This document shows positions 10,947 through 41,956 of a stretch of DNA of 47,783 nt, piece by piece. The stretch spans positions 1 to 47,783 of the forward strand of contig JACQWM010000011.1 in assembly GCA_016209275.1 (NCBI GenBank), in the 5' to 3' direction. The notes beneath the pieces are model-generated. The model was not told where the DNA came from, ran no database searches, and saw only the letters and a program-made list of their open reading frames with translations. The number at the start of each line of letters is the position of its first letter. Position 1 is the stretch's first letter. The DNA comes from Candidatus Omnitrophota bacterium. GTDB lineage: Bacteria > Omnitrophota > Gorgyraeia > Aquiviventales > Aquiviventaceae. A program made the position numbers and the translations under genes.

Positions 10947-13052
10947 TTATCGTCGCACAGCGCCGAGGTGTTGCGCAAGGGCTTGAGCAACGCGCTGATG
11001 CAGGGCGTCAACCTCGTCAGCGGCCAGCGTCCGCGCAGGATCATGGTACGCAATCGAAAATGTCAGGCTGTATTTACCCGACGGCACCTGGGCGCCTCGG
11101 TCGTAGCGATCGATCAATTCCACCTGGGAGGCGGCCGGCCCGGCCGCCTGCTGAATGACTCGCGCAGCCTCCGCATAGGCGACCGATACATCGAGCAGAA
11201 AGGAGATGTCCCGCTTCGCCGCCGGGATACTCGATGGCGCCATCACCCGCCGGTCGGTTGCGCGCGCAACGCCTAAGAGGTCGGCGTCGCATTCGGCGAA
11301 CCACGCATCATGTTTGACATCAAGTGCTGCAAGAATCCGCGGGGCGATTTTTCCTGCCGCGCCGAGCCGCCGCTCACCGAGGAGAACCGTCGCGCTCTGC
11401 CCGGCCTCCGCCCACGGATGCGGCTGGACCGTGAGATGGATCGGCTGCTGGGTGGCGCGCCCCGCGATAGCCTCCAGCAGCCCCTTTAGGAGAAAGAAGT
11501 CGCTAGGCTGCGCTTTCATCGACCAATCCCGCAGCCATGTCCCGGAGATGAGCAGCCCCAGCTGCGTGCGCTCAGCTGAGGCTTCCGGCGGCACGACCGC
11601 CCCAAGCTCGAAGAAGCGAATACTTGATGCCCCATGGGTCACATTGTGCCGGAGGGCTTGCAACAACCCCATCAACAGCGATGGACGGACGTACGCATGG
11701 TCTTGGCTGAGCGGATTGCTCACCCGCGCCGCACTCGTGGGTGAGATGCCGCACCGGGTCAGGGCTTGCTCGGAGAGCAAGGACCAGGTTTTGGCCTCGC
11801 ACAATCCCAGGCTCGCACAGAGGCGTTGCAGTTCGTGTCGTTGGGCATATGTTGCCGAGCCTGCACGCCGCGCAGGAAATGACCCGGTGGGCACGGTGGC
11901 GGGAATGCGCTCATAGCCCATTAACCGGGCGAGCTCTTCGTGAAGATCAACCTCGTGGGTCACATCTCGTCGAAACGACGGCACCGTCACGCGAACCGTC
12001 TCGCTTGATCCGGATGACGCCACCAAGCATCCCAGGCGTGCGAGGTGCGTTCGAATCTCCGACGATGACACCGGCACCCCCAGCCGTTGCTTGACTCGTC
12101 TTCCATCCATCACAATCACGGTGCGCGCGGCTGGTCCCTGGCCAACGTCAATGACGCGGCACTCCTCGCCGCCGGCGAGCTCTTGAATCAGCCCGGAGGC
12201 GCGCGCCGAGGCGGTGGCGACACCCACGGGATCAACACCCCGCTCAAACCGGTACGACGATTCGCTCGTCAGCCCTAGCCGCCGTCCGGTGCGTCGGATG
12301 GAGATCGGATCAAAGAGCGCGCTCTCCAGCAACACCGTCGTTGTCTGCGGGGTGACTTCGCTTCCCATGCCTCCCATAATACCGGCGACGGCAACCGCCT
12401 GTTTCGCATCGGCGATGACGAGGGTCTCCGGAGTTACGGTCCGCTTGAGGCCATCCAAGGTCGTGATCGACTCATTCGCTCGCGCGGCCCGCACCAGAAT
12501 TGTGCCGCCGGATAGCTTGGCGAAATCAAACGCGTGCAGCGGTTGGCCGTATTCAAAGAGCACGTAGTTGGTAATATCGACGACGTTATTGATCGGCCGC
12601 GCGCCGCAGGCGATGAGGCGCTTCTGCATCCACTCCGGCGATGGTTTGATCGTCACCCCGTCGATGAGCCGCCCAATGTAGCGCTGGCAATGTTTCTTAT
12701 CCTCAATGAGGATCTTGGCTAGGAGCTGAGAGCTAGGAGCGGAGCGCCGCCTAACACCTTTTTTGCTTCCAGCTCCCAGCTCCCCCGGCCCGACCCGAGC
12801 CGGGGCGGGCCAGCTCTTAGCCGACGGAAGTTTTAGTCTTTGCCCAGTAATTGCTGCCACTTCTCTCGCAATCCCGATGATCGACAAACAATCCGGCCGA
12901 TTCGGCGTGACCTCGATATCAAACACTGGCTGCCCGTCGACGTCGTGGATGGCCACGACTTCCAGCCCGGCCATCGTCAGCCGCTCCGCCAGCGCCTCGG
13001 GCTTGAGCCGAATAGTTACGCACTCTTTCAACCATTCCAGCGGGATTTTCAT
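10947..13052 (-). CDS. pheT: phenylalanine--tRNA ligase beta subunit
   Basis: PheT pairs with PheS to charge tRNA-Phe. The 701 residues have K-I-P-L-E-W-L-K-E at the start and D-I-E-V-T-P-N-R-P-D-C-L-S at about 45-57. Next come the B3/B4 editing region (N-N-V-V-D-I-T-N-Y-V-L-F-E-Y-G-Q-P-L-H-A-F-D) and the B5 and catalytic-like domains. The C-terminal anticodon-binding FDX-ACB domain contains K-R-D-I-S-F-L-L-D. The chain is shorter than the usual approximately 800 residues because the N-terminal EMAP/OB tRNA-binding domain is absent. Residues about 75-112 are low-complexity and coincide with an inserted palindromic repeat. The start overlaps the preceding membrane gene by 4 nt. Confidence 0.96.
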   Translation of the reverse strand: MKIPLEWLKECVTIRLKPEALAERLTMAGLEVVAIHDVDGQPVFDIEVTPNRPDCLSIIGIAREVAAITGQRLKLPSAKSWPAPARVGPGELGAGSKKGVRRRSAPSSQLLAKILIEDKKHCQRYIGRLIDGVTIKPSPEWMQKRLIACGARPINNVVDITNYVLFEYGQPLHAFDFAKLSGGTILVRAARANESITTLDGLKRTVTPETLVIADAKQAVAVAGIMGGMGSEVTPQTTTVLLESALFDPISIRRTGRRLGLTSESSYRFERGVDPVGVATASARASGLIQELAGGEECRVIDVGQGPAARTVIVMDGRRVKQRLGVPVSSSEIRTHLARLGCLVASSGSSETVRVTVPSFRRDVTHEVDLHEELARLMGYERIPATVPTGSFPARRAGSATYAQRHELQRLCASLGLCEAKTWSLLSEQALTRCGISPTSAARVSNPLSQDHAYVRPSLLMGLLQALRHNVTHGASSIRFFELGAVVPPEASAERTQLGLLISGTWLRDWSMKAQPSDFFLLKGLLEAIAGRATQQPIHLTVQPHPWAEAGQSATVLLGERRLGAAGKIAPRILAALDVKHDAWFAECDADLLGVARATDRRVMAPSSIPAAKRDISFLLDVSVAYAEAARVIQQAAGPAASQVELIDRYDRGAQVPSGKYSLTFSIAYHDPARTLAADEVDALHQRVAQALAQHLGAVRR
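12716..12825. repeat. repeat cluster inserted in frame in pheT
   Basis: The tract holds short repeats of the type GCTAGGAGCTGAGAGCTAGG and AGCTCCCAGCTCCC, then a GC-rich palindrome CCCCGGCCCGACCC-GAGCCGGGGCGGGCC (12783-12811). The same palindrome, with four extra bases in its centre, is inside carA (47019-47050). The insertion is in frame and codes for about 37 residues between two conserved PheT segments. Confidence 0.8.
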
Positions 13053-13459
13053 GACGACTTCTTTGCACTTAAGAAAACCAGCATAGCTGTAACCATCGCT
13101 GGAAAAAAGAACAGCGTCAACCAGCCTACCAGGACACCGGCTTCGAGATATTCCAGAACCCTTACGATGCCATCGAATTCAAAAGGAACCAAGAGACCAG
13201 CTGCTGCAAAAATACGCCAAGAACTGTTACCAGACCGCCACTTGAAGGCTCGCCTCACTATGACAAGCATCCAAACCAACACTGCCGTCAAGATGAGCGC
13301 ATAAGGTGTGGAAGTCAAAAAGGCCCATTCAATCTGCCCCCTGGGACCAAACTTGGGATCAACATTGTGAAACAAATAGACGCTGACGCGCTCTTTGCCA
13401 ATCAGGGCTGACCAGGTCGCAAGAAAAAAAGCTCCTGCGCGTTTCCCATCGACGGTCAT
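13049..13459 (-). CDS. small membrane protein between pheS and pheT
   Basis: This 136-residue hydrophobic protein is of unknown function. It has a weak first hydrophobic stretch (A-F-F-L-A-T-W-S-A-L-I), then clear TMs at about 53-68 (Y-A-L-I-L-T-A-V-L-V-W-M-L-V-I-V) and about 105-130 (V-L-V-G-W-L-T-L-F-F-F-P-A-M-V). ATG 13459 overlaps, as TGATG, the stop of a pheS 3' remnant, and its own stop overlaps the pheT start. This shows it belonged to a tightly coupled pheS-orf-pheT operon before the vapBC insertion. The frame is open for 31 codons further upstream, but those codons run through the pheS remnant, so the later start is preferred. Confidence 0.7.
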   Translation of the reverse strand: MTVDGKRAGAFFLATWSALIGKERVSVYLFHNVDPKFGPRGQIEWAFLTSTPYALILTAVLVWMLVIVRRAFKWRSGNSSWRIFAAAGLLVPFEFDGIVRVLEYLEAGVLVGWLTLFFFPAMVTAMLVFLSAKKSS

Positions 13460-13530
13460 CAAAACTGCTCCAGGAATCGTAGATCGTTTTCGAAAAAGAG
13501 TCGGCTGTCGGTGATGCGATATGGCAACAT
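13459..13530 (-). pseudogene. duplicated 3' end of pheS (24 codons)
   Basis: On the minus strand this encodes M-L-P-Y-R-I-T-D-S-R then L-F-F-E-N-D-L-R-F-L-E-Q-F and a stop. The intact PheS ends M-L-K-L-G-I-T-D-I-R then the same 13 residues and stop. The nucleotide match to 14286-14357 is strong but imperfect, with many synonymous differences, so it is an old or imported copy. It begins 2 nt after the vapC stop. With the true pheS end it brackets the vapBC cassette. Confidence 0.88.
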
Positions 13531-13532
13531 CG

Positions 13533-13982
13533 TCAGGACGCTCCGCCGGCACGTGGTGCGCCTTTGAGATGATGGATCGTCAGGTACTCCTCGGCGGTGT
13601 AGAGCGGGATGGTGGCTTGCCGGTAATCCCGCTTATTGCGCGTGACGAGCCCGTCCATTTTGTGCACCACGGCTGAGTAATACTGAATGGCGTCCTCGAA
13701 ATCGCTAAACTCCTCGGCCGAGAGCGCTCGATCAATAATCTGCTCATCGAGGGTCACGACACGGACAATGAGTCGAAGCTTTCGGACATGCTGGATGGCT
13801 GCGGCTTTGGTCATCGCACGCCGCAAGACGTAATGGAGATTCGCGACCGTCAAGGGGGACATGGCTCCACGAACGACCCCGGCTTCCACGAGACTTAACA
13901 ATTCTGCGGCGGGCGTATGGTGCGGGGCACGAGCCAACAGCAGATCCAGCAGGATATCCGTGTCAAAAAAGAGGCTGGTCAT
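13533..13982 (-). CDS. vapC: VapC-type PIN-domain toxin ribonuclease
   Basis: The 149 residues fit a PIN-domain ribonuclease. They start S-L-F-F-D-T-D-I-L-L-D (first acidic metal ligand). The internal F-S-D-F-E-D-A-I-Q-Y-Y-S-A gives the middle acidic residues, and T-R-N-K-R-D-Y follows, as in many VapC proteins. Such toxins cleave tRNA or rRNA until blocked by the cognate antitoxin. ATG 13982 forms an ATGA overlap with the stop of the antitoxin gene. The frame stays open upstream, but only in the antitoxin shadow. The stop lies 2 nt from the pheS remnant. Confidence 0.9.
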   Translation of the reverse strand: MTSLFFDTDILLDLLLARAPHHTPAAELLSLVEAGVVRGAMSPLTVANLHYVLRRAMTKAAAIQHVRKLRLIVRVVTLDEQIIDRALSAEEFSDFEDAIQYYSAVVHKMDGLVTRNKRDYRQATIPLYTAEEYLTIHHLKGAPRAGGAS

Positions 13983-14230
13983 CTGGCGTATTTCTTTGCC
14001 AAATGCTCCGCATACGCCTCCCTCCATCGGCGCGCCGCCTTCGCCGTGGTGACTCCGGACAACTCACGCACCAGCGGCGTGAGACGCTCCGATGGCGGCC
14101 AAGATTTCGACCCCAGCGCCTGAAAATAATCTTCCACGATCCGAGAGAGGCTGATGTGGTAAGAATGCGCGTAGCGCTTCGCGCGCTGAATCGCCGACCC
14201 ATCAAGTTTCAAGGTAAGTTTCGTGTTCAT
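13979..14230 (-). CDS. vapB: VapB-like antitoxin (DUF6364-type)
   Basis: The 83 residues begin N-T-K-L-T-L-K-L-D-G-S-A-I-Q-R-A-K-R-Y-A. This is a ribbon-helix-helix-type start seen in DUF6364 antitoxins, followed by S-L-S-R-I-V-E-D-Y. The C-terminal half is charged and should wrap around VapC. A ribosome binding site AGAGG precedes the ATG, and a complete promoter with a TACGTC/GACGTA inverted repeat lies just upstream. That fits autorepression by the VapBC complex. The four-base overlap with vapC is typical of toxin-antitoxin pairs. Confidence 0.88.
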   Translation of the reverse strand: MNTKLTLKLDGSAIQRAKRYAHSYHISLSRIVEDYFQALGSKSWPPSERLTPLVRELSGVTTAKAARRWREAYAEHLAKKYAR

Positions 14231-14253
14231 CGCAACCTCTTTTGTACGTCTAA

Positions 14254-14282
14254 ATTATACTTTATTTGGACGTACTCTGCAA
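14254..14282 (-). promoter_or_regulatory. vapBC promoter with inverted-repeat operator
   Basis: On the minus strand, TTGCAG (-35, 14277-14282), 17 nt, then consensus TATAAT (14254-14259). TACGTC and GACGTA (about 14246-14273) flank the -10 as an inverted repeat. The -35 begins 3 nt after the pheS stop codon, so the cassette brings its own promoter with almost no spare sequence. Confidence 0.75.
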
Positions 14283-14285
14283 CAT

Positions 14286-15320
14286 TCAAAACTGTTCGAG
14301 GAAGCGTAGATCGTTTTCGAAGAAGAGGCGGATGTCGGTGATGCCGAGTTTGAGCATCGCGATCCGTTCGACTCCCATGCCAAACGCAAAGCCTTGCACC
14401 TTGTTGGCGTCATAGCCGACCGCCTTGAACACATTCGGATGCACCATGCCGCAGCCCATGATCTCAAGCCAGCCTTTGCGGCCGCACGTCGAGCATCCCT
14501 TCCCTTCGCACGAGGAGCACGCGATGTCGACCTCGGCGGAGGGCTCGGTGAATGGGAAAAAGTGCGGACGAAATCGCGTCTTGGTCTTCGGCCCGAAGAG
14601 CCCTTGCAGAAACCGCTCCAACACCCCTTTGAGATCCGCAAACGAGGTCCGGTCATCCACCATCAAGCCCTCAACTTGATGAAACATGAAGCTGTGGCTG
14701 GGGTCGAGCGGATCCGGCCGAAACACTTTCCCAGGTACCACGACCCGCAGCGGCGGCTGGCGTTGCTCCATCACGCGCACCTGCACCGGCGAGGTGTGGC
14801 TGCGCAAGAGCAGCCGGCCTTTCTTCGGCTCCGGTGACGGAAGATCAACGAAGAATGTATCGAAGGATTCGCGAGACGGATGATCGCGGGGGATATTGAG
14901 CGCATCGAAGTTATAATATTCAAACTCCATCTCCGGCCCTTCGATGATGTCAAAGCCGAGTGGGATGAATTGGTCAAGGATGGAATGCAAGGTTTGGGTG
15001 ATGGGGTGGAGCCGTCCGAGGGCCACGGCCCGCCCTGGCAGCGAAACGTCGATGCTAGGGCCCTGGCGGGTCGCGGCGAACATCTCGCGGCGCGCGATCA
15101 GGGCAGACTCGAGGGACGTTTTGAGGTGGTTCGCGCGCTTGCCGACGTCAACCCGCTGCTCCGATGAGAGCTGCGGAATGGACTTCATGATCTCCGCCAG
15201 CCGGCTCTTGCGGCCGAGGTAGGTGATGCGAACTTTCTCCAGCTCTTCGGGTGACGTCGCGCGCTCAACACGCCCGGCGGCTTCACTCAAGAGCTGCTCA
15301 AGTTCCTGCGCCGTGTCCAT
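14286..15320 (-). CDS. pheS: phenylalanine--tRNA ligase alpha subunit
   Basis: PheS is the catalytic subunit of the synthetase. From ATG 15320 it has 344 residues. The N-terminal coiled coil (about 1-90) is followed by the class II core with H-P-I-T-Q-T-L, E-G-P-E-M-E-F-E-Y-Y-N-F-D-A-L-N-I-P and D-H-P-S-R. Later come R-S-H-T-S-P-V-Q-V-R, a C-x2-C-x4-C-x2-C cluster (C-S-S-C-E-G-K-G-C-S-T-C) and motif 3 G-M-G-V-E-R-I-A-M. The frame continues seven codons upstream to 15341, but those codons lie in a repeat. No good ribosome binding site is visible, as a GTGTCAGACAC repeat array fills the space after rplT. Confidence 0.96.
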   Translation of the reverse strand: MDTAQELEQLLSEAAGRVERATSPEELEKVRITYLGRKSRLAEIMKSIPQLSSEQRVDVGKRANHLKTSLESALIARREMFAATRQGPSIDVSLPGRAVALGRLHPITQTLHSILDQFIPLGFDIIEGPEMEFEYYNFDALNIPRDHPSRESFDTFFVDLPSPEPKKGRLLLRSHTSPVQVRVMEQRQPPLRVVVPGKVFRPDPLDPSHSFMFHQVEGLMVDDRTSFADLKGVLERFLQGLFGPKTKTRFRPHFFPFTEPSAEVDIACSSCEGKGCSTCGRKGWLEIMGCGMVHPNVFKAVGYDANKVQGFAFGMGVERIAMLKLGITDIRLFFENDLRFLEQF

Positions 15321-15340: not shown

Positions 15341-15413
15341 AAAAGTGTCAGACACTTTTGGCCTTCCAGAAGTGTCAGGCACTTTTTGAAGGCGGGAAGC
15401 GTCTGACACTTTT
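15341..15413. repeat. GTGTCAGACAC palindrome array
   Basis: Three related units lie between rplT and pheS: AAAAGTGTCAGACACTTTT (15341-15359), AAGTGTCAGGCACTTTTT (15370-15387) and GTCTGACACTTTT (15401-15413). They are of the same style as the GGGGTCAGACCCC units at 2476-2521. The last base pairs overlap the rplT stop. The T-flanked hairpins might also act as weak terminators in the operon. Confidence 0.82.
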
Positions 15414-18785: not shown

Positions 18786-19528
18786 TAATTGTTTGGCATA
18801 GTCCAGGCGAGATTAAAGCGGTCCAACGTATCGTCCGTCAACAAGCCATGTAAGTCGCCCAGAGAGCCATCAGCCAGGAAGTCTCCGTGCCGTCGCCACG
18901 TCGTCCAAGGGATCTCCTTGCTCTGTGACTCCATGAGTAAATAGCTCGCGTACGCTGCCATGGCACGATCGAACCACTGTTTAAACTTTGAGCTGTGGAA
19001 TTCGAGGATGGCCAGTCCATAAGGCGACCATTGCTTGTGAGCCTTGCTTCTCTTATCTGTATGACGATACATATGGACTCGGTTGAGCGGAAGCTTCAAC
19101 ATTCGGCTCTAGTATCGTCTTGCGGTCGATAGTGCGAAGCGTTTATGGACTCTCACATAGACACTGAGGCGATTCTCATCAGCATGGCATACTTCTCTCA
19201 AGAACTTGATGAACACTTGAAGCATCCGGCTGTCAAGGTTACCGATTTTCGTACCATGCTTGTACGTCTTATCCCCCTCGGCCCAATACAGCAAGAAGCC
19301 GGCGGCCAATAGTTCTCGTTGAGCTGATGTCAATGTACTGGGAATTGTGAACGGATCCCCATCGGGATTAAGTTTCACATAGGCGCTTTCACTCCACGAC
19401 CGCCTTGGAATTCTGTGCTTTTTCAGCCAATACAGAACGGTTGCATGAGTGATGCTCAGCTCGCTGGCGATCTCCATCATCGACAACCGTCGCTGACAGT
19501 ACAGTCTCTTCAATTCTATCTTATTCAT
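18785..19528 (-). pseudogene. HTH plus LAGLIDADG-like endonuclease gene split by one TAG
   Basis: The frame is open from ATG 19528 to 18785 except for a single TAG at 19109-19111. The N-terminal part has a helix-turn-helix (M-M-E-I-A-S-E-L-S-I-T-H-A-T-V-L-Y-W-L-K-K-H) and the family pattern N-P-D-G-D-P-F with L-L-Y-W-A-E-G-D-K-T. After the stop the same frame continues L-K-L-P-L-N-R-V-H-M-Y-R-H-T-D-K-R-S and S-P-Y-G-L-A-I-L-E-F-H-S. Both halves look conserved. At the break, Y-stop-S-R fits Y-W-S-R, so TGG to TAG is the likely event. The start is 10 nt from the tRNA-Val 3' end, leaving no room for a promoter. Confidence 0.75.
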
Positions 19529-19537
19529 GTGTAAACC

Positions 19538-19611
19538 TGGGCGATAGTGGGCTCGAACCACTGACCTCCACGATGTCAACGTGGCGCTCTAACCGACTGA
19601 GCTAATCGCCC
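19538..19611 (-). tRNA. tRNA-Val (anticodon GAC)
   Basis: This is a 74-nt cloverleaf on the minus strand: acceptor GGGCGAT/ATCGCCC, D arm with AGCTCAGTCGGTTAGAGC, anticodon stem CCACG/CGTGG around loop TTGACAT, and T arm with GGTTCGAGCC. The discriminator is A and CCA is not encoded. It lies 6 nt after the small membrane ORF and 10 nt before the split endonuclease gene. Confidence 0.97.
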
Positions 19612-21098: not shown

Positions 21099-21986
21099 TC
21101 ATGCCGGGGGTGGGATTCGAACCCACATGTCCCTTTCGAGACAACGGGTTTTAAGCCCGTCGTGTAAACCGTTCCACCACCCCGGCATATCGGTTGCAAA
21201 TTCTTCAGCGACTAATCCTGCTGTAGGATCAGGCTTATCATCGGGGCCTCTTATCGGTCGTGGATATGTATGCACATAACTCCAATTTCGCCAGCAATGG
21301 GAATTATTTACGGTCTTGCTCTTCCTCCAACCCACAGAAATTGATGCGCATTCAAGGGCTAACTTCATTTTTCTCTCAAGCGCTAACGCTCCAGCGTAAT
21401 AGCATTCGCTTAAAATCACCTTGGCGGCCAATTTTCCAAATTTGAGCGTGTACATGGGATGCCGTCGACCTGTTTCGTCCACGTATTTGTGAATTTTCCC
21501 TTTGACATGCCAGAGTCGCTGTGTCGTCCCCTGTAACCACACGATAAATGGTTGTGAGGCGCCGTAAATTCTTACAACCCACTGCTCCCGACCATTCGTT
21601 GGGTGCGTCCAGTGGCGAATGTTTCCGTCTCCATCAATTACTCCACGGAGAAAATGGTGAAACCACTTATCAGGGATACTGAGAGGACCGAGGGTCAAAG
21701 ATTTCCGTGGCGTTAAACCAAGGCTAAGTAGTTTCTCATATAAGTTTTTATTGCTGATCTGTAGACGATATGCAAAGTGACCACTGCCTCCCCAAGATTT
21801 GGTCGCGCCGCAAGTAAGATGAGCGTGGTGTTTCAATTTCATAAGATATCGACGATCTTTGGCAACAATTGTCACATGTCGACCGTCCGAGCTAAGACAG
21901 CCGTCGGATGCGACCACCCCAACCAAATACCAAAACACATGATCGGGACACTCGAAGGGTTTTAGTTTGGGTCCTCTATTTCCCAT
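21099..21986 (-). CDS. LAGLIDADG-type homing endonuclease ORF running through tRNA-Leu
   Basis: The 295-codon frame carries two LAGLIDADG-like motifs: W-Y-L-V-G-V-V-A-S-D-G (about 19-29) and H-H-F-L-R-G-V-I-D-G-D-G (about 109-120). They have the spacing of a single-chain enzyme, with D-G as the metal-binding ends. After about residue 230 the conserved fold should be finished, and the frame runs on through the whole tRNA-Leu gene (21102-21186) to a TGA at 21099. The final approximately 30 residues are therefore translated tRNA. No group I intron is seen in the tRNA, so this is a free-standing endonuclease. Composition is less GC-rich than average. Confidence 0.78.
   Translation of the reverse strand: MGNRGPKLKPFECPDHVFWYLVGVVASDGCLSSDGRHVTIVAKDRRYLMKLKHHAHLTCGATKSWGGSGHFAYRLQISNKNLYEKLLSLGLTPRKSLTLGPLSIPDKWFHHFLRGVIDGDGNIRHWTHPTNGREQWVVRIYGASQPFIVWLQGTTQRLWHVKGKIHKYVDETGRRHPMYTLKFGKLAAKVILSECYYAGALALERKMKLALECASISVGWRKSKTVNNSHCWRNWSYVHTYPRPIRGPDDKPDPTAGLVAEEFATDMPGWWNGLHDGLKTRCLERDMWVRIPPPA
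21102..21186 (-). tRNA. tRNA-Leu (anticodon TAA)
   Basis: This 85-nt tRNA on the minus strand has acceptor GCCGGGG/CCCCGGC, a long variable arm (TGTCTCGAAAGGGACA), loop CTTAAAA with anticodon TAA, and T arm GGGTTCGAATCCC. The discriminator is A and CCA is not encoded. The gene is complete and uninterrupted, although an endonuclease reading frame overlaps it entirely. Confidence 0.97.
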
Positions 21987-40117: not shown

Positions 40118-41956
40118 ATGTGCGGGATTATCGGATACGTGGGAACCAAGCCAGTCACGGACGTCCTTCTTGAGGGCTTGCGGAATCTTGAATATCGGGG
40201 TTATGATTCCGCCGGACTCGCGGTGCTCAATGGCCGGGGGATTCAGATTCGCAAGCGACCAGGTAAACTGAGCGCGCTCATCGAAGAGATTAAGCGCAAG
40301 CCGATTTCTGGAACCATCGGGGTGGGTCACTCCAGATGGGCGACGCATGGTCTGCCGAATGAGATCAACGCGCATCCCCACACGGATTGCACGGGCAAGC
40401 TTGCCATCATCCATAACGGCATCATTGAGAACTACGCGCAGCTGAAGGAGCGGTTGCTGGAGAAAGGCCATCGGTTTCGCTCGAAAACCGACACGGAAAT
40501 CATTGTCCATCTCATTGAAGAGCACGCCAAGCATGCGCCCATCGCAGAGGCCTTCCGGTTGGCCCTCAAAGAGCTGCGCGGCGCGTATGCGGTCTGCCTG
40601 CTCTCGGCTGATGAGCCGACACGGCTCTTCGGGGCGCGCAACAGCAGCCCGCTCATCGTCGGGCTGGGCGGGGGTGAAGCGTTTTTTGCCTCTGACGTGC
40701 CGGCCATCTTGGGCCATACGCGGCGCGTGGTCTACTTACACGACGATGAGGTCGTAGAGCTTTCCGCCAAGGGGGCTCGGATCACGACGCTGGATGGCAA
40801 ACCCATTCAGCGCGCTCCCAGCACGGTGTCCTTCAGCCGCGAGGCCGCGCAGCGCGGCGGCTACCCGCACTTCATGCTCAAAGAAATCCACGAGCAACCG
40901 GCGAGCATTGCGCAAACCCTGGCGAATCGGCTGCTGCCGGACACGCGGCGCGTGACCTTTGACCGGCGCACCAAGGCGTTTCTCGATGCGCTGCACCCGG
41001 ACGAAAAATTCATCATCATTTCTTGCGGCACCGCCTATCACGCGGGCTTGGTGGGCGAATATATGCTGGAAGAATTCGCCGGCGCGCCCGTCGATGTCGA
41101 CTTGGCCAGCGAATTCCGCTACCGCGGAGTCACACTCGACCGCCGCACCACCGTCATGGCCATTACCCAATCCGGCGAGACAGCGGATACGCTTGCTGGC
41201 GTGCGATTGGCGAAATCGCAAGGCGCAAAGGTTCTTTCGATTTGCAACGTCGTGGGATCTTCCATTGCGCGAGAATCCGATGCGGTGCTCTACACGCATG
41301 CCGGGCCGGAAATCGCCGTCGCCTCAACCAAGGCCTACACGTCGCAGCTGACGGCGCTGGCCCTGATCACGCTGTATCTGGCCAAGCGGCTGCGGCGGAT
41401 GACGCCGCGCCGATGGCGGGCGCTGCTGGAGAACTTCGCCCAGTTACCGTACATCATCGAGCGGACGCTCACCATTGAGCCGGCGATCAAGAAGGCCGCG
41501 GCGAAATACGCCGCCGAGCGCAATTTCTACTATTTGGGGCGCCGCTACCACTATCCCAGCGCGCTGGAAGGCGCGCTCAAGCTGAAAGAAATCTGCCCGT
41601 TGATCCATGCCGAAGGCTATGCGGCCGGCGAAATGAAGCACGGGCCGATCTCGCTGATCCGCAAAGGCTGGCCGGTGGTGTTTCTGGCGACGGACTCGCC
41701 GGTATATGAAAAGGTCATCTCCAACATCGAAGAAATCCGCGCGCGCAAGGGGGCGTGCATCGTCATCGCAACCGAAGGCAACACCGCAATCCGCCGCCAC
41801 GCGGACCATGTGCTCTACGTGCCGAAAACCGAGGAGCTCTTCTCCCCGATCATCGCGGCCATTCCGCTGCAGCTCTTCGCCTACTACGTGGCCGACGCCA
41901 ACGGCTGCGATATCGACCAACCTCCAAACCTTGCAAAAAGCGTCACGGTAGAGTAG
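40118..41956 (+). CDS. glmS: glutamine--fructose-6-phosphate aminotransferase
   Basis: GlmS makes glucosamine-6-phosphate from fructose-6-phosphate and glutamine. The 612 residues start M-C-G-I-I-G-Y-V-G with the N-terminal nucleophile Cys. They contain G-H-S-R-W-A-T-H-G, E-Y-R-G-Y-D-S-A-G, the isomerase SIS domains with S-C-G-T-A-Y-H-A and T-Q-S-G-E-T-A-D-T, and E-G-Y-A-A-G-E-M-K-H-G-P. The chain ends L-A-K-S-V-T-V-E as usual. No glmS ribozyme is seen in the short upstream region, which is taken up by the palindrome. Confidence 0.97.
   Translation: MCGIIGYVGTKPVTDVLLEGLRNLEYRGYDSAGLAVLNGRGIQIRKRPGKLSALIEEIKRKPISGTIGVGHSRWATHGLPNEINAHPHTDCTGKLAIIHNGIIENYAQLKERLLEKGHRFRSKTDTEIIVHLIEEHAKHAPIAEAFRLALKELRGAYAVCLLSADEPTRLFGARNSSPLIVGLGGGEAFFASDVPAILGHTRRVVYLHDDEVVELSAKGARITTLDGKPIQRAPSTVSFSREAAQRGGYPHFMLKEIHEQPASIAQTLANRLLPDTRRVTFDRRTKAFLDALHPDEKFIIISCGTAYHAGLVGEYMLEEFAGAPVDVDLASEFRYRGVTLDRRTTVMAITQSGETADTLAGVRLAKSQGAKVLSICNVVGSSIARESDAVLYTHAGPEIAVASTKAYTSQLTALALITLYLAKRLRRMTPRRWRALLENFAQLPYIIERTLTIEPAIKKAAAKYAAERNFYYLGRRYHYPSALEGALKLKEICPLIHAEGYAAGEMKHGPISLIRKGWPVVFLATDSPVYEKVISNIEEIRARKGACIVIATEGNTAIRRHADHVLYVPKTEELFSPIIAAIPLQLFAYYVADANGCDIDQPPNLAKSVTVE

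Follow-up and report, generated by a model that had tools for sequence, protein, structure and literature searches.

How chromosomal toxin-antitoxin (TA) pairs spread when no mobility genes are to be seen is a question yet to be answered. At the pheS-pheT locus of an Omnitrophota genome (a 1.8-Mb draft in 63 contigs) a vapBC cassette stands between two copies of the end of pheS, and one may ask how it came to be there and why the second copy has been kept. A duplicated gene end flanking a cassette is a recognisable scar, by which insertions can be counted or dated and import told from local duplication. It also shows how a pair of overlapping essential genes, in which the end of the first carries the start signals of the second, can tolerate an insertion.

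The pheS-pheT locus

The window, that is the whole stretch of DNA analysed, is 47.8 kb long. On its minus strand the gene order is thrS, infC, rpmI, rplT, pheS, vapB, vapC, a remnant of the pheS 3' end, a small membrane ORF and pheT, the names of the first four being assigned from their sequences. All features of the locus given below are on this strand. The intact pheS gene (14286-15320; Pfam PF01409/PF02912; identity to relatives up to 80%) encodes the alpha subunit of phenylalanine-tRNA ligase, and pheT (10947-13052; Pfam B3_4, tRNA_synthFbeta, B5 and FDX-ACB) the beta subunit. The small membrane ORF (13049-13459) gave no match in a Pfam search. Palindromic, REP-like repeats, AAGTGTCAGACACTTTT, lie upstream of pheS at 15341-15413, with a similar copy in another region of the collection (L238, 2713-2767). 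Elsewhere in the window, an ORF beside a tRNA-Leu gene (21099-21986) has a weak LAGLIDADG_3 match and is homing endonuclease-like; another ORF, overlapping a tRNA-Val gene (19109-19579), has neither this match nor any other.

The duplicated pheS end is a direct repeat of 59 nt, 53 of which are identical, with one copy at the 3' end of intact pheS (14286-14344), the other at 13459-13517 and a spacing of 827. It is the sole pair of its kind in the window. The local alignment score was 88, whereas 500 shuffles gave no more than 25. The original prediction had the last 24 codons duplicated. The duplication is real but homology is clear over 19 codons plus 2 nt, the preceding 15 nt sharing only CGATG in register; upstream of the well-conserved codons a strongly diverged extension of the repeat is possible. 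Both copies finish exactly at the stop codon TGA. They had been said to differ at many synonymous positions, and third codon positions do account for five of the differences, but there are only six in all.

Fifteen nucleotides (13518-13532) separate the vapC stop from the downstream copy. Read as an open mini-ORF of 23 codons (13459-13530), this copy starts 2 nt past the vapC stop and contains GGAG at 13468-13471; a role in translation may be supposed. Its stop overlaps the ATG of the membrane ORF (TGATG; TTTTGATG) and the stop of that ORF overlaps pheT (ATGA), both as predicted, which places the copy at the old operon junction and allows the order pheS-orf-pheT to be reconstructed. The TGATG junction to the next gene is retained, which supports the reading that the remnant is the original pheS end, still in its original place. 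A replacement end in the intact gene is likewise supported. The ORF list and Pfam searches gave no recombinase among the gene-sized ORFs from pheS to pheT, and the predicted absence of an integrase adjoining the cassette was borne out.

The vapBC cassette

The antitoxin gene comes first, vapB (13979-14230; Pfam PF19891, DUF6364, E=7e-23) overlapping vapC (13533-13982; PIN_3, Pfam PF13470, E=1e-17) through ATGA. Homologues of vapB in the class have a PIN toxin partner, and in an alignment of 10 homologues vapC keeps the conserved acidic residues at the PIN motif positions. Upstream of vapB, in the presumed promoter region (14231-14285), a palindrome of the form GTACGTC...GACGTAC (GTACGTCCAA..TTAGACGTAC, 14244-14275) surrounds TATAAT (14254-14259). 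A palindrome of ACGT type stands at the equivalent place in most of the homologous cassettes from the rest of the class. A generic sigma-70 scan of the region upstream of vapB gave no -35/-10 pair. With a PIN-domain toxin, a small overlapping antitoxin gene upstream of it and a palindromic operator, the cassette is by its sequence a VapBC-type TA pair, and the Pfam matches together with the palindromic operator/-10 element agree with the expectation of a vapBC unit with its own promoter between the pheS ends.

The toxin has a C-terminal extension of roughly 10 residues that is unseen in the 10 aligned homologues; loss of its own stop at the junction may be the reason. On the coding strand, no terminator was predicted from vapC to the membrane ORF, therefore read-through towards pheT is possible. 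A phage or plasmid origin was considered and rejected, as the pheS-end pattern did not occur in viral contigs, vapC had no relatives in them and its relatives on plasmids were only distant.

pheS in relatives

Named relatives with a similar pheS are mostly labelled Omnitrophota. In many of them pheS and pheT are adjacent and in a few there are other inserts. A pattern search of 384 genomes of the class found two pheS-end matches only in the source genome, among the matches listed, and a separate search of 80 pheS loci gave no second pheS end in any of them. Among the genomes searched, no other has vapBC inserted at pheS. Between pheS and pheT of one genome (G007) a RelE-like remnant was read by eye, and the pheS-end match there, scoring 27 against 25 in shuffles, was barely above background and was discarded.

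Intact pheS is congruent with its neighbours: the same two genomes (G019 and G026) are nearest for the N- and C-terminal parts of pheS, for rplT, for rpmI and for thrS. A foreign origin for the whole gene was ruled out on this ranking. Both pheS ends contain codon choices rare in relatives, namely CTA, GAA and a final TTT. Given this congruence and these shared codons, any donor of the pheS end would have been a close relative. The shared rare codons also fit a duplicate made within the lineage.

Recurrence of bracketed cassettes

The original prediction proposed a search for other TA genes beside pheS fragments. The source genome gave 11 PIN-domain and 7 ParE/RelE-type hits, and the same anatomy was found at two of its other genes, one being a transketolase gene with a Phd-RelE pair after it and the other a TPR gene with HicBA after it. 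In relatives it was found at glmS, prfB (in two genera), secA, a glycosyltransferase gene, an amidohydrolase gene and a gene that we read as trypsin-like, whose protein has no Pfam hit. In the source genome (G000) the glmS-rsmI junction is uninserted: glmS (40118-41956, plus strand, outside the pheS locus) is followed by the rsmI-like ORF with no insert, and the bracketed glmS of G007 may be compared with it. Three genera (L329, L351 and L357) have orthologous Phd-VapC pairs at the junction of prfB and secA, and in one of them there is no prfB remnant.

Among 71 TA regions of this family of uncultured Omnitrophota, 14 had a repeat pair of 40-200 nt bracketing the toxin (3.9 expected; maximum of 9 in 1000 shifts), though a few of the 14 are not clean gene ends (L336 is RAYT-like, L317 palindromic, and L347, L231 and L232 are adhesin or membrane paralogues). 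Control DNA of the same family, 20 regions totalling 208 kb, contained no such pair. In 40 TA regions taken from the class outside this family there was one bracket, REP-like, and none at gene ends. With regions picked by toxin score and not randomly, and counting all 14, the contrast between families has p=0.002 against 0/40 and p=0.01 against 1/40. The brackets of L044, L107, L443 and L338, being of RAYT, integron and REP type, were set aside as different phenomena, and those of L314 and L315, with spacings near 2 kb, were left out; they look like repeats inside genes. In L044 (242-1159) a duplicated 3' end of a RAYT-like transposase surrounds a RelBE-like pair adjoining a vapBC pair.

Bracketing duplicates occur at 5' as well as 3' ends of target genes, and both TA type and target gene vary. 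Some inserts are not TA genes, and restriction of the pattern to TA genes was ruled out by a bracketed RusA-like gene and a bracketed two-gene insert. The former, identified by eye, lies at L324 (1739-2434) between copies of an 88-nt, 97% identical 5' end of a response-regulator-like gene and is a young case. In L231 (5000-8926) TA pairs alternate with truncated adhesin 5' ends, and the adjoining adhesin gene runs to the contig end. A palindrome, CGATATCAGATATC..GATATCTGATATCG, found at several places in the genome (2201, 38850 and 40063 in the window), also occurs inside adhesin signal-peptide regions there. The recurrence of the anatomy suggests that such cassettes get into tightly packed operons with both neighbouring genes left whole and with no integrase of their own.

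Divergence of the paired copies

Pooling ten annotated pairs, the copies differ at 10, 15 and 43 first, second and third codon positions respectively. The third-position share, 43/68, has p=4e-7 against one third and p=0.002 against about 0.45, the latter being our own estimate, with assumed tolerance rates, for a duplicate that arose locally and decayed, changes being mostly silent in the intact copy and unrestricted in the remnant. An indel is present in one of the ten pairs. In the TPR and prfB pairs the in-frame C-terminal tails differ between copies. The third-position excess and the differing tails favour ends that diverged as working genes. There is no such bias in the TPR pair (2/6) or in the RusA-like case (1/3, a count made by eye), and the pheS pair taken by itself, with its five of six, is a weak sign of import. 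In two genomes with orthologous TAs (G022 and G005) the copies are most alike within each genome, hence gene conversion may obscure how these copies arose. As between an imported homologous end and a local duplication, import is only somewhat ahead. Of the original idea of a foreign replacement end, the replacement gains support from its recurrence at other genes, but the foreign origin is not established and appears moderately supported.

Retention of the remnant

The remnant overlaps or abuts the start of the next gene in six of the eight 3' cases, the genes being the membrane ORF, secA (twice), rsmI and the ORFs after the glycosyltransferase and trypsin-like remnants; in the prfB case of G005 the following secA start is itself a fragment. 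The GGAG of the pheS remnant is 8 nt before the next ATG, whereas the intact pheS end reads CTC GAA there, without GGAG. Many relatives have GGAG at the equivalent place whether or not the genes overlap, and so its presence in the remnant alone proves nothing. In most E. coli gene pairs tested, reinitiation is influenced by ribosome-binding motifs that lie within the upstream gene, and removal of the motif reduced it in four of five pairs (PMC6728339). These facts would fit selection for keeping the duplicated stretch. The TPR and transketolase remnants are uncoupled to a downstream start, the latter being the one with a frameshift, and retention for translation cannot explain those two. Our best reading is that an insertion into an overlapping gene pair survives only if the shared end is duplicated: as the last codons of the first gene hold the ribosome-binding site of the next, only insertions that duplicate the stretch would keep both genes.

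Origin of the arrangement

We envisage that vapBC was inserted where pheS and the orf overlap, in an event by which pheS would have gained another, homologous 3' end and its original end would have come to lie downstream of the toxin. The event may have been ordinary recombination anchored in the target gene, whether by homology-facilitated illegitimate recombination or by a single crossover with DNA that bore both the gene end and the TA genes, with selection accounting for the survival of the duplicate. The many targets and inserts, with no recombinase common to them, point to ordinary recombination, and the variety of TA types and targets together with the non-TA inserts implies no cassette-borne integrase. 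At pheS, the abrupt junction after vapC and the homologous pheS end would be in keeping with homology-facilitated illegitimate recombination. We judge the chances of this account, entry with a homologous second end through anchored recombination and retention by selection, to be about even. The wider proposal, of a route used recurrently in this family along which small cassettes, TA or other, pass into overlapping gene pairs and supply a homologous gene end, making TA genes mobile between essential genes without their own recombinase, seems to us doubtful.

A staggered break or template switch at insertion could instead have produced a long target-site duplication whose copies drifted apart afterwards, with synonymous changes in the intact copy and with changes in the remnant that were either free or limited by the start of the downstream gene. 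Such a local origin is possible, with the odds somewhat against it: the lineage-specific codons common to both pheS copies and the vertical congruence of intact pheS agree with it, as does the spread of pair identities from 85 to 95%, as if the pairs were of different ages, and in L238 spacings of 815 and 799 with a RelBE fragment suggest tandem duplication. The excess of third-position differences and the near absence of indels tell against it. Similarity that ends at the stop codon in five cases, and the differing TPR and prfB tails, are rather what different alleles would give. Non-autonomous elements moved by a recombinase encoded elsewhere would likewise bring a replacement end, a known habit of integrative elements, but here the targets differ with no common sequence seen, 5' ends are hit too, the inserts are of several TA types or none, and viral contigs lack the pheS-end pattern; site-specific integration of this kind is improbable. 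A false join of two strains or contigs at the pheS end is conceivable in a draft of this kind. Since several further genomes of the family show the same anatomy, the genes concerned being different ones, and the 208 kb of control sequence is free of repeat pairs, an assembly artefact is the least probable explanation and a very unlikely one.

Comparison with known systems

The cassette shares with VapBC type II systems the order of antitoxin gene before an overlapping PIN-domain toxin gene and a palindromic operator over the -10 box. Here the antitoxin is of the PF19891 (DUF6364) family, on which no paper was found in the literature searched, and the pair is a putative one known from sequence. 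Like the TA cassettes of chromosomal integrons it is a small promoter-bearing unit inserted without disrupting genes; no attC-like structure was seen at 13459-14285 by reading alone. An array of integron type was seen by eye in another genome (L107, 1284-2170), with attC-like repeats between its TA cassettes. Integrative elements are known to replace the 3' end of the gene they target, which may be a tRNA gene or, for some, a protein gene, e14 at icd being an example. There too the target works through a supplied end and the old end is left as a remnant. In contrast, no integrase accompanies the cassettes described here, many different targets are used, and 5' ends are used as well; no conserved attachment sequence was found, different gene ends being used at each bracketed site. 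The comparison with elements at tRNA 3' ends made in the original prediction therefore stands as an analogy only.

The closest described process is probably homology-anchored illegitimate recombination. There is a published precedent for insertion in which homology anchors one end and the other end is illegitimate (PMC3240628). In Vibrio cholerae, T6SS effector-immunity modules push the old effector 3' end downstream (PMC5361080), and the likeness extends to the homology-anchored end, the inserted toxin module and the displaced 3' end. The difference is that the Vibrio effector acquires a different end (PMC5361080), whereas here an essential gene is given back an end equivalent to its own, and a short piece of the old one is kept where the native overlap lies.
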